A stretch of DNA of 34,744 bases from Wenzhouxiangella sp. 15190 (GTDB lineage Bacteria; Pseudomonadota; Gammaproteobacteria; Xanthomonadales; Wenzhouxiangellaceae): assembly GCF_003417465.1 (NCBI RefSeq), contig NZ_QVMV01000033.1, positions 1 through 34,744 on the forward strand, written 5' to 3'. The position numbers and the translations under genes are program-made. This document shows, in pieces, positions 3,663-5,779 of this stretch. The first letter of the stretch is position 1; every line of letters starts with the position of its first letter. The notes under the pieces were generated by a model. That model was not told where the DNA came from. It was given only the letters and a program-made list of their open reading frames with translations, and did no database searches.

Positions 3663-5522
3663 ATGAGCAATTATCGGCCTGATGTCTGCCTGGTGATGAT
3701 CGTGCGCGACGAAGCGCATGTCATCGAGCGCTGCCTGGACTCCCTACGCCCATTGATCACACGCTGGTGCATCGTCGATACCGGCTCGACCGACGAGACG
3801 CCGGCTCTCATCGACACCGCATTGGCCGGGCTGCCGGGTAAGCTGCACCGCCGGCCTTGGGTGGACTTCGGCCATAACCGCTCCGAATCCCTGGCGCTCG
3901 CAGCCGGACAGGGTGACTTCCTGTTGCTGATCGATGCCGACGAAACGCTGACGATTGCCGACGATTTCCGCTGGCCGGACGATCCGCGCGTTCAGGCCTG
4001 GCTAATCCGGCAGCGGATTAGCGCAGCCGAATTCGAGTACGACCTGCCGAAGCTGCTGCGCGCCGACCACCCCTGGCATTTCGAGGGCGTGGTTCACGAG
4101 TACCTGACCAGCCAGCAACCCTTTCGACGCGAACTGCTACCCGGTCTGATGCAGATAGGACACTACGACAGCGCACGCAATCGCAGCGGGAAGAAGTTCA
4201 AGCAGGATATCGAACTGCTCGAGCGTGCGCTGGCCGACGAACCCGGCCATGCCCGCAGCCAATTCTACCTGGCCCAAAGCCTGCGCGATGCCGGCCGGAT
4301 TCCGGATGCCATTGCCGCCTACCGCCAGCGTGTCGAACTCGGCGGCTGGGACGAAGAAGTGTTCTATTCACTGTGGCAGATCGCCCGGTTGCTGGAGATC
4401 ACCGGCGCCGCGATTCCGGCGGTCACCGAGGCCTACCTGGCCGCCTGGCAGTTCCGGCCGACGCGGATCGAGCCACTGGTCGACCTGGCCCGCGTGAACC
4501 GTCAGCTGGGGCGTTCTCATATCGCACGGCTGTTCGCTGAACGTGCCGCGACCACGCCGCGACCGGACGACATCCTGTTCGTCGACGCATCGACCTACCG
4601 CTGGCGCGCGATCGATGAACTGGCGATGGCGCTGCATGCAACCGGCGAGCGTGAGCGCGCCGAAGCCAAGTGGCAAGGCATGCTCGATGCCGGCACGCTG
4701 CCCTCGAGCGAAACCGGACGCATTTGTGACAACATTCAGTCCTGCCACCTTGACGGGGATGCTGCCGTCACCGCCGTTGCGCTGAAGGTCCGGGTCGCGC
4801 TGACCATAACGACCTGCAAGCGCCCAGACCTTTTCGAGCGCACCGTAGAGAGTTTTCTTCGATGCTGCACCGATCACCAGCGCATCGTCGAGTGGATCTG
4901 CGTCGACGACAATTCAACGAAAGAGGACCGTGCTCGAATGAAGGCGCGCTTCCCGTTCTTCACCTGGGTCTGGAAGGACGAACAGTCGAAGGGACACGCC
5001 CACAGCATGAATTTACTCTCCGACCTGGTCCGTGTCGGAAATTTCGACTACGTACTGCACCTGGAAGACGATTGGGAGTTTTTCGAGACCCGAGACTGGA
5101 TCAGCGATACGCTGATCGTTCTCGCCCGGGAACGAGACTGCGGTCAGGTGCTGTTCAACCGCAACTACGCCGAGATTCCCGGAGACGGCGACATTCTCGG
5201 CGGCCTGATCCGCAAAACACCCGACGGCTTGCGCTACCGGGTTCACGTGCACGACACCGTGGCCACCCCGGGTCGATCGTGCGCCTGGTGGCCGCACTTC
5301 TCGTTGCGCCCGTCACTGCTACGCACCGCGGTGTTCGAACGAATCGGCCGCTTCGATCCGAACAGCGAACATTTCGAACTGGACTATGCAAAACGCTACA
5401 TGCAAGCCGGCTTCCGCTCGGCTTTTCTGGATACCATCGGACTCAAGCACATCGGCAAACTCACCACCGAGACCGGCGAGAACGCCTACAGCCTGAACGG
5501 CCAGGTGCAATTCGGCAGTTGA
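3663..5522 (+). CDS. Two-domain glycosyltransferase with central TPR-like linker
   Basis: The product has 619 residues. Residues 7-145 form a family 2 (GT-A) domain with LVMIVRDEAHVIERCLDSL, IVDTGSTDETP and the metal-binding DADE at 91-94. Residues 170-345 are helical repeats of TPR type (for example HARSQFYLAQSLRDAGRIPDAIAAY). Residues 377-600 are a second, different nucleotide-sugar transferase domain with ALTITTCKRPDLFERTVESF, VDDNS at 414-418 and the acidic LEDDWEFF at 467-474. No signal peptide or membrane span is present, so it acts in the cytoplasm. Sugar donor and acceptor are unknown. It is divergent from the PVPTL/collagen gene pair, which suggests that one or both of those proteins are its substrates. 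The start ATG has little Shine-Dalgarno sequence. Its stop codon overlaps the putative -35 box of the met leader. Confidence 0.85.
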   Translation: MSNYRPDVCLVMIVRDEAHVIERCLDSLRPLITRWCIVDTGSTDETPALIDTALAGLPGKLHRRPWVDFGHNRSESLALAAGQGDFLLLIDADETLTIADDFRWPDDPRVQAWLIRQRISAAEFEYDLPKLLRADHPWHFEGVVHEYLTSQQPFRRELLPGLMQIGHYDSARNRSGKKFKQDIELLERALADEPGHARSQFYLAQSLRDAGRIPDAIAAYRQRVELGGWDEEVFYSLWQIARLLEITGAAIPAVTEAYLAAWQFRPTRIEPLVDLARVNRQLGRSHIARLFAERAATTPRPDDILFVDASTYRWRAIDELAMALHATGERERAEAKWQGMLDAGTLPSSETGRICDNIQSCHLDGDAAVTAVALKVRVALTITTCKRPDLFERTVESFLRCCTDHQRIVEWICVDDNSTKEDRARMKARFPFFTWVWKDEQSKGHAHSMNLLSDLVRVGNFDYVLHLEDDWEFFETRDWISDTLIVLARERDCGQVLFNRNYAEIPGDGDILGGLIRKTPDGLRYRVHVHDTVATPGRSCAWWPHFSLRPSLLRTAVFERIGRFDPNSEHFELDYAKRYMQAGFRSAFLDTIGLKHIGKLTTETGENAYSLNGQVQFGS

Positions 5523-5548
5523 CAGCGCATTTCAAAACTGCGTAAATA
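5519..5548 (+). promoter_or_regulatory. Candidate promoter of the met leader
   Basis: A perfect -35 box, TTGACA, at 5519-5524 spans the stop codon of the preceding gene. A weak -10 (TAAATA, 5543-5548) follows at an 18-base spacing. If used, transcription would start near 5555, right at the leader ATG, giving an almost leaderless leader mRNA. An upstream promoter is equally possible. Confidence 0.4.
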
Positions 5549-5553
5549 GGAAC

Positions 5554-5649
5554 ATGAATTCCGAACCCGCCAAGCACTTCAACTGCGCGATGTGCATGTG
5601 CATGTGTCTGCAAGCCTCTGCTGCGGATACGTGTACGGCTGTGTTCTGA
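5554..5649 (+). CDS. Cys/Met-rich leader peptide of the metY-metX-hom attenuator
   Basis: This is a 31-codon reading frame from ATG 5554 to TGA 5647-5649. Codons 11-18 read CAMCMCMC (5584-5607), giving four Cys and three Met codons in eight positions; one more Cys is at codon 27. Such clustering of two of the rarest amino acids, just upstream of a terminator and a methionine operon, is the mark of a ribosome-stalling leader peptide. Scarce charged Cys- or Met-tRNA would stall the ribosome there. AGGA at 5548-5551 is only two bases from the ATG, which is short, so initiation may be leaderless-like. Initiation at an internal ATG (5590) would still retain the Met/Cys run. I do not recall this peptide as described, though that is not a search. 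Confidence 0.7.
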
Positions 5650-5714
5650 TCCACTAGACAAACCGATTCACGCAAGAACCCGCAGCGGCCTGGCCGGTGC
5701 GGGTTTTTCTTTGT
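5618..5714 (+). promoter_or_regulatory. Transcription attenuator with competing antiterminator
   Basis: The terminator stem is AACCCGCA (5677-5684) with TGCGGGTT (5698-5705), extended inside by CGGC/GCCG, and followed by TTTCTTTG. The 5' half of that stem (CCGCAGCGG, 5680-5688) can instead pair with CTGCTGCGG at 5618-5626, giving nine pairs including one G-U, which would dismantle the terminator. A ribosome stalled at codon 18 (5605-5607) would reach to about 5618-5620 and leave the antiterminator strand free. A translating ribosome would run over it. A shorter second candidate (5638-5643 with 5681-5686) lies nearer the leader stop. The leader region that would sequester 5618-5626 is not clear. 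Confidence 0.68.
5677..5714 (+). terminator. Intrinsic terminator in the met leader
   Basis: An 8-bp GC-rich stem (5677-5684 with 5698-5705) encloses a G-G mismatch and a further 4-bp stem, and a T-rich run follows. It lies 28 bases after the leader peptide stop and 66 bases before the metY start, so it would terminate transcription before the operon. It could also serve as a plain terminator for the preceding glycosyltransferase gene, but the competing upstream pairing argues for regulation. Confidence 0.8.
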
Positions 5715-5779
5715 CCAACCCCCTCATCTGTCTTCCGCTGCGGCAACCGCGATCCACCGCAAACTTGAGGAGACAGACC

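Follow-up and report, generated by a model that had tools for sequence, protein, structure and literature searches.

In the window, i.e. the whole analysed stretch of 34,744 nucleotides from Wenzhouxiangella sp. 15190 (contig NZ_QVMV01000033.1), the methionine operon metY-metX-hom was preceded by a short leader open reading frame (ORF) with clustered cysteine (Cys) and methionine (Met) codons and by an intrinsic terminator, and together these parts very probably act as a ribosome-mediated transcription attenuator for the operon. This interpretation, which had been put forward in an earlier note made from the sequence alone, was supported by the present analysis. Met is a product of the pathway encoded downstream and Cys is only possibly so. 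Sequence and folding both placed the terminator between the leader ORF and the first gene, and an antiterminator that is mutually exclusive with the terminator was found and was kept in relatives.

The leader ORF was located at 5554 to 5649 of the plus strand, with ATG at 5554 and a TGA ending at 5649, and is predicted to be leaderless; similar leaders were present in relatives. It has 31 codons, and codons 11 to 18 (5584 to 5607, plus strand) read directly as C A M C M C M C, which gives four Cys and three Met codons in eight positions. The frame length and the Cys and Met count of the earlier note held when re-checked. A fifth Cys was found at codon 27. The last control codon is codon 18 of 31, 13 codons ahead of the last codon, and the peptide does not contain Cys-Cys.

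A strong 1:2 (pause or protector) hairpin was identified at 5594 to 5639 of the plus strand, with arms at 5594 to 5615 and 5620 to 5639, a folding energy of −27.8 kcal/mol, a z-score of −4.5 and none of 200 shuffles as stable, so that the pause structure is clearer than the earlier note had considered it to be. The 5' arm of this hairpin spans control codons 14 to 18 and the three codons that follow. Strand 2, the 5' arm of the antiterminator (CTGCTGCGG, 5618 to 5626, plus strand), lies inside the leader ORF, ends 20 nt ahead of the stop codon and forms nine pairs with strand 3, the 3' arm of the antiterminator (CCGCAGCGG, 5680 to 5688, plus strand); this helix had been predicted before and was recovered by folding. 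Strand 3 is common to the stem of the intrinsic terminator (3:4; 5674 to 5711, plus strand), which is composed of a stem at 5674 to 5684/5698 to 5708, an inner stem at 5686 to 5689/5693 to 5696 and a T-rich tail. The terminator stem folded at −25.6 kcal/mol with one of 200 shuffles equally stable, which agrees with the strong terminator described in the earlier note, although the base of the stem is 24 bases past the stop codon and not 28 as had been given there.

In the proposed mechanism, RNA polymerase would start at or near the leader ATG and a ribosome would load on the leaderless message. When charged tRNA-Cys and tRNA-Met are ample, the ribosome would pass codons 11 to 18 fast, the 1:2 hairpin would form behind it and sequester strand 2, the 3:4 hairpin (5674 to 5708) would then form and transcription would end. 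When either tRNA is uncharged, the ribosome would stall at the Cys and Met codons and cover strand 1, strand 2 would pair with strand 3, no terminator would form and the operon would be read.

For conservation, metY homologues were drawn from 61 genomes (own genome and 60 relatives). A total of 30 loci were returned, and the upstream sequence was read for L001 to L025; L026 to L030 (38–42% identity) are outside this set. In 17 of the 25 read loci (L001, which is the window, L002 to L016 and L024), a leader of 29 to 33 codons built around Met-Cys-Met was followed by a terminator, and the parts stood in the same order. Eight read loci had no leader (L017 to L023 and L025); six of these were distant (52–57% identity) and L017 and L018 were near exceptions (73–74%). 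The peptide core, the terminator and the alternative pairing were all kept in close relatives, where the earlier note had proposed to look for them. The shared layout appears to define a family of 25 leaders: that of the own genome, those of 16 relatives and of three more distant members of the own class, and five from Acidobacteriota, Eisenbacteria, Gemmatimonadota and Acidimicrobiia. Cys and Met were both present inside the densest eight residues in all 25 leaders and Met-Cys-Met in 24, which makes this core the most regularly kept part of the leader peptide. The rest of the peptide varied widely, the number and order of Cys and Met shifted among leaders, and the Cys codons alternated between TGC and TGT.

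A covariance model of the 17 leaders, searched against 299 genomes of the order, produced 17 matches of at least 51 bits, which are by construction its own leaders, and no further strong leader. The gene metY follows each of these 17 matched leaders, and the own genome showed a single match site plus its reverse-strand echo. Weak matches, found in 126 of the 299 genomes at E ≤ 0.01 among the matches listed, were not counted as members. A search of 369 genomes of the class for the metY type of the window (E ≤ 1e-190) returned, apart from the own genome, three more that each have a Cys/Met leader (L141 to L143), and a search of 398 genomes of the phylum returned the own genome only. This metY type is therefore seldom met among the sampled genomes of class and phylum, and in the class the leader mostly accompanies it. 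The named proteobacterial loci L035, L046 and L077 did not have a leader.

Strand 2 was held in a hairpin in the folds of 23 other leaders, inspected by eye, and usually the Cys and Met codons were part of its 5' arm or directly preceded it. The 2:3 duplex was searched in the ORF tail past the last Cys or Met codon, against the 5' arm of the terminator, and the best duplex started 0 to 13 nt past that codon in 25 of 25 leaders. In 24 leaders it exceeded the mean strength obtained with shuffled tails, with p < 0.05 individually in 10 of the 25. In a 19-row alignment (A2), which omits L014 as a near-copy of L012 and holds rows L141 to L143 partly out of register, standard 2:3 pairs were formed in 86% of cells, a value reached by none of 500 shuffles, and three rows showed a double change from UA to CG at one pair. 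The 3:4 helix had standard pairs in 96.7% of cells (1 of 500 shuffles) and two doubly changed pairs (12 of 500). Outside the register of A2 the helix changed jointly to GUGCGGG/CCCGCAC in L141 and L143, to CCGGCGCGGGG/CCCCGCGCCGG in the Gemmatimonadota locus and to CGCGGA/UCCGCG in the Eisenbacteria locus. The compensatory changes suggested as a check in the earlier note were thus present in both helices but few, and those of the 2:3 helix did not exceed shuffles. RNAalifold alone returned the terminator stem only, and the terminators of L047, L054 and L058 were missed by a stricter scan and found by a looser rule.

The position of the control codons was further compared by masking the ribosome footprint codon by codon and folding the RNA up to the terminator loop, an equilibrium calculation with an assumed footprint that does not describe kinetics. 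Among 17 leaders, predicted pairing of strand 3 with the ORF was high when the ribosome was on the last Cys or Met codons and dropped below 0.5 within three codons in 13, the drop being absent in L007, L009, L016 and L024. For single codons 15 to 18 of the window, this pairing reached up to 0.87. In a fixed comparison of 25 leaders, pairing was higher with the ribosome on the control codons than on codons 3 to 8 further on in 22 (median difference of 0.30), and the outcome was similar for leading edges of 10, 12 and 14 nt, with 21, 22 and 22 of the 25 leaders behaving as expected.

A promoter was located directly ahead of the leader. Its −35 element TTGACA (5519 to 5524, plus strand) overlaps the stop codon (5520 to 5522) of the upstream glycosyltransferase-like gene, and a weak −10 element, either GTAAAT (5542 to 5547) or TAAATA (5543 to 5548), ends 6 or 5 nt before the ATG on the same strand. 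A TTGAC hexamer was found ahead of the leader start in 20 of 20 own-class leaders, and in all 20 it was followed after 17 to 19 bases by a −10-like hexamer (at least 3 of 6 positions) that ends 5 to 10 bases ahead of the ATG. Of 22 own-class metY loci, 20 had a promoter-adjacent frame with at least four Cys or Met in eight residues, whereas dinucleotide shuffles gave a mean of 0.1 of 22; among metY loci of other groups the count was 6 of 79, with none in shuffles. The 22 loci are those with a metY identity of at least 73%, window included, and L019 to L023 and L025 (52–57%) are outside this set. From the promoter position, transcription should begin at or a few bases from the leader ATG; the message thus appears leaderless, and the ribosome would load on it. 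The spacing of the Shine-Dalgarno sequence, listed as short in the earlier note, is better taken as a sign of a leaderless message that has no Shine-Dalgarno sequence. A simple promoter scan overlooked this promoter, as it demands an A at position 2 of the −10 element. A leaderless leader is known from Sinorhizobium meliloti, in which the trpL RNA begins with its own ATG, according to the available part of that report (PMC7298713).

Several results weigh against the attenuator reading. The −10 element of the window agrees with the consensus at 3 of 6 positions and is weak, and leaderless initiation itself uses Met, so that Met starvation could reduce translation of the leader. In the duplex comparison, L054 failed, and the combined p-value of 9e-11 ignores the relatedness of the rows and overstates the result. 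At least as many doubly changed 2:3 pairs as in A2 (one) occurred in 254 of 500 shuffles, and at least as many pair types in 474. In the 25-leader folding comparison, the contrast of the window was small (0.45 vs. 0.43) and L016, L142 and L058 were reversed. Finally, pairing of strand 3 with the ORF was at least 0.5 in 8 of 17 leaders when no ribosome was present (0.72 for the window) and in 10 of 17 when the ribosome was at the stop codon (0.26 for the window); the plain model predicts termination in both states, and these folds therefore count against it. Overall, the support from the masking folds extends to the placement of the control codons and not to the off state.

Sensing of both amino acids by the leader would agree with the position of MetY in metabolism. 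The enzyme converts sulfide and O-acetylhomoserine to homocysteine, and since homocysteine is a precursor of Met and possibly, via cystathionine, of Cys, a single leader that reports on both would make sense. The own genome showed only a partial match to the cysE model, inside a 514-residue frame that was also hit by the EpsC model. A cystathionine beta-synthase (CBS)-like gene (C13:16702-18042) had 415 bits, below the cut-off of 510 that was reached in neither the 61 genomes nor the 14 controls, and it adjoins a gene that is above the cut-off for cystathionine gamma-synthase and below that for cystathionine gamma-lyase. This pair suggests that Cys may derive from homocysteine, and a shared homocysteine route to Cys is plausible. 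No leader was seen upstream of the CBS-like gene of the own genome. A true CysK was also found in this genome (409 bits, cut-off 351), which speaks against the dual reading in that it keeps a second route to Cys available and weakens the need for Cys through MetY.

An attenuator for one amino acid only, either Cys or Met, is a serious though rather unlikely alternative, in which the second residue would be kept since the repeat UGUGCAUGUG forms the 5' arm of the 1:2 hairpin. The control codons of the window are indeed themselves a hairpin arm, several Bacteroidota leaders are near-pure in Cys and stand beside a riboswitch for S-adenosylmethionine (SAM), and the known mycobacterial poly-Cys and Campylobacter MetL leaders sense one amino acid as far as the accessible descriptions go. 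However, in L011 to L015 and L024 the stem with strand 2 reaches at most the last Met-Cys-Met, and an earlier Cys outside the stem is kept (inspected by eye). The presence of both residues in every one of the 25 leaders also argues against a bystander role for one of them, and the TGC/TGT variation indicates that the letters are not frozen.

It is quite improbable that the peptide itself is the sensor or the product, either through nascent-chain arrest (e.g. on a metal or redox change) or as a trans-acting metal-binding peptide. The regularly kept Met-Cys-Met core with several thiols is chemically unusual, but the remaining peptide varies, the order and number of Cys and Met shift, the codons hold their position shortly before strand 2, and metY stands behind each covariance-matched leader. 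Least probable is the absence of any translation-dependent switch, with a terminator of the upstream gene, a coding-like stretch and a metY promoter further downstream: the terminator is indeed placed after the upstream gene and ahead of metY, and the upstream stop codon is overlapped by the leader promoter, but by eye the sequence 5' of the promoter differs among relatives, whose metY nonetheless keeps promoter, leader and terminator, and a simple scan (the same one that missed the leader promoter) showed no promoter between terminator and metY. Attenuation by a stalled ribosome is the reading retained here.

Leaders of this type were also found outside the class. Out of 80 named metY loci of other groups, one was dropped for its short upstream stretch and 79 were usable. 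A short upstream frame with at least five Cys or Met in eight residues was present in 10 loci, while the reverse strand gave none and shuffles 0.1; with at least four, the count was 16 loci, compared to 1 for the reverse strand and 1.1 for shuffles. Five of these 16 (L031, L047, L053, L054 and L058, from Acidimicrobiia, Acidobacteriota, Eisenbacteria and Gemmatimonadota) share the layout of the window including promoter and terminator. In a metY tree with 102 rows, 38 of them carrying a leader, the label had to change 13 times vs. 30.9 in shuffles, with the tree being a quick one under a simple model. Leader rows were assigned by hand, and the ambiguous L034, L039, L074, L089 and L108 gave 13 changes when scored as without leader and 12 when omitted. 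One branch with a support of 96 in the Shimodaira-Hasegawa-like approximate likelihood ratio test (SH-aLRT) held 31 rows, 24 of them with a leader, from the relatives of the window, the three own-class genomes, Acidobacteriota, Eisenbacteria, Acidimicrobiia and Gemmatimonadota; the leader-bearing L016 falls outside it. The simplest reading is that leader and metY were inherited together and passed from phylum to phylum, and repeated origin is the alternative.

The SAM-I riboswitch (RF00162) controls methionine genes in other bacteria. No SAM-I was found in the window leader or elsewhere in the own genome, and it was present in 32 of the 61 own and related genomes. A SAM riboswitch was carried by 4 of 17 genomes with the leader vs. 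28 of 44 without it (Fisher p = 0.009, relatedness uncorrected), and within the genus by 4 of 15 vs. 9 of 15 (p = 0.14), a contrast that is suggestive over the 61 genomes but not within the genus. On the metY branch described above, the Acidimicrobiia loci L051, L071 and L074 hold a SAM-I aptamer, and SAM-I was found in 13 of 20 scanned loci of other groups. A mobile leader-metY cassette, in which a leaderless attenuator for both Cys and Met moved between phyla and replaced the SAM riboswitch on arrival, is put forward as a tentative possibility that is somewhat more doubtful than credible.

Arrangements that combine both devices were also observed. In the Bacteroidota loci L065, L080, L081, L083, L088, L098, L103 and L107, a SAM-I aptamer ends 8 to 10 nt before a Cys-rich leader ORF, and this series could be a two-input gate for SAM and charged tRNA-Cys. 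In L079, L090 and L091, a Cys/Met-rich frame with a terminator is followed by a separate SAM-I riboswitch upstream of metY.

In the window, the terminator is followed by metY, a metX-like gene and a hom-like gene. The metY gene (5780 to 7102, plus strand), encoding O-acetylhomoserine aminocarboxypropyltransferase (sulfhydrylase), starts with GTG, scored 690.8 bits against TIGR01326 (cut-off 495.1) and has a Shine-Dalgarno sequence GAGGAG at 5767 to 5772 of the plus strand. The metX-like homoserine acyltransferase gene (7099 to 8106, plus strand) overlaps the metY stop, and the homoserine dehydrogenase-like hom (8103 to 9242, plus strand) starts with ATG at 8103 and overlaps the metX stop; both junctions are four-base ATGA overlaps. 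In the family scan the second gene fitted MetX models, with TIGR01392 as best match, and the third fitted models of homoserine dehydrogenase; neither gene reached the curated cut-offs. The coupled methionine operon that the earlier note had recognised was confirmed with these results. Upstream, the glycosyltransferase-like gene whose stop codon is overlapped by the leader −35 element occupies 3663 to 5522 of the plus strand and has a weak match to the SunS family, and an ORF with a long collagen-like GPTGPTG repeat was found at 2267 to 3670 of the minus strand. A search of the window with Rfam 15 at gathering score gave a tRNA at 2147 to 2220 as the sole match and no family at the leader, and down to E = 1 no family was found within 5400 to 5800.

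Related leaders were met among the weak covariance matches. Reading of 13 such loci (L128 to L140) showed ten asparagine (Asn)-rich leaders, one leader before hom, one Cys-Cys-like leader before a TonB receptor gene, and no clear leader in L137. The Asn-rich leader ORFs (L129, L130, L132 to L136 and L138 to L140), e.g. MSIRLATAVNNNRNNLRANNRARPMRDCALGR, have a terminator behind them. The leader of L129 is followed by the gene for asparagine synthase B, and the other Asn-rich loci resemble this locus by eye. These are possible asparagine attenuators, and one search of open-access papers gave nothing on an attenuator of that kind. On the reverse strand of L128, a promoter-adjacent leader with a Met-Cys-Met core, MNLFGSRSLTTSSMPITMCMRTRVDRGLA, and a terminator precede a homoserine dehydrogenase-like gene. 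On the reverse strand of L131, a GTG-started frame identified by eye, MNIHFPRTANLAADCCRGLFVRGISVEEAVC, and a terminator precede a TonB-dependent receptor-like gene, and this frame resembles a leader with tandem Cys codons in front of an uptake gene.

The classical attenuators are the trp, his, thr and ilv leaders of enterobacteria, and the thr leader of Escherichia coli, with its mix of Thr and Ile codons, sets a precedent for a two-amino-acid leader. Like these, the window leader has a short ORF, clustered codons for the product, mutually exclusive 1:2, 2:3 and 3:4 hairpins and an intrinsic terminator. Unlike these, it combines Cys with Met, has a predicted leaderless start and holds strand 2 within the ORF. 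Compared to the SAM-I riboswitch, the window leader has no aptamer and its signal would be read by the ribosome.

Among Cys leaders, the mycobacterial poly-cysteine leaderless attenuators (Canestrari et al. 2020, as cited in PMC9031893 and PMC13236596) are similar to the window leader, as far as they are described there, in the short ORF, the Cys codons and the link to sulfur metabolism; they are leaderless, a start that is predicted here, and the promoter position would place the ORF at the 5' end of the transcript in 20 of 22 loci. The Mycobacterium cys-operon leaders have Cys runs near the stop codon and, in the accessible text, no conserved terminator hairpin (PMC1262725). In contrast to these contiguous Cys codons, the Cys codons of the window alternate with Met and an intrinsic terminator is present. 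The Campylobacter jejuni MetL leader before metBA (PMC3847290), with a translation signal in PMC11955535, is also placed ahead of methionine genes and has Met codons among its 20 residues, and its RNA is short and ends past the stop codon. However, MetL has three Met codons with no Cys mentioned in the available descriptions, was found via ORFs with a ribosome-binding site and has orthologues only in C. jejuni, C. coli and C. doylei according to the open part of that report (PMC3847290). The uORFC-8-2 motif before cysS in Rhodobacterales, for which attenuation was proposed (PMC8632094), is likewise a proteobacterial Cys-codon leader with an intrinsic terminator, but in the accessible description it has two tandem Cys codons, usually at 14 and 15, a tRNA synthetase gene downstream and no Met run. 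The window leader is followed by metY and not by cysS. Overall, searches of an open-access library, which leaves most subscription papers outside its scope, gave Cys leaders, a Met leader and leaderless leaders and none described as a mix of Cys and Met; leader-peptide attenuators before amino acid operons of a flavobacterium (PMC9723704) have their specifics in a supplement that lies beyond this negative result.

If the attenuator reading is true, both ends of the sulfur amino acid supply would be read by one short ORF with neither a protein nor an aptamer, and Cys plus Met would be added to the known attenuator specificities. The leader would also be a strong candidate for a leaderless leader peptide beyond mycobacteria and Sinorhizobium, and metY would offer a natural comparison of SAM sensing and charged-tRNA sensing on the same gene. 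Compared to the known systems, the element stands out by its pairing of Cys with Met, which is new, by a leaderless start that is probable and by a spread wider than expected, and otherwise it would follow known ribosome-mediated attenuation.

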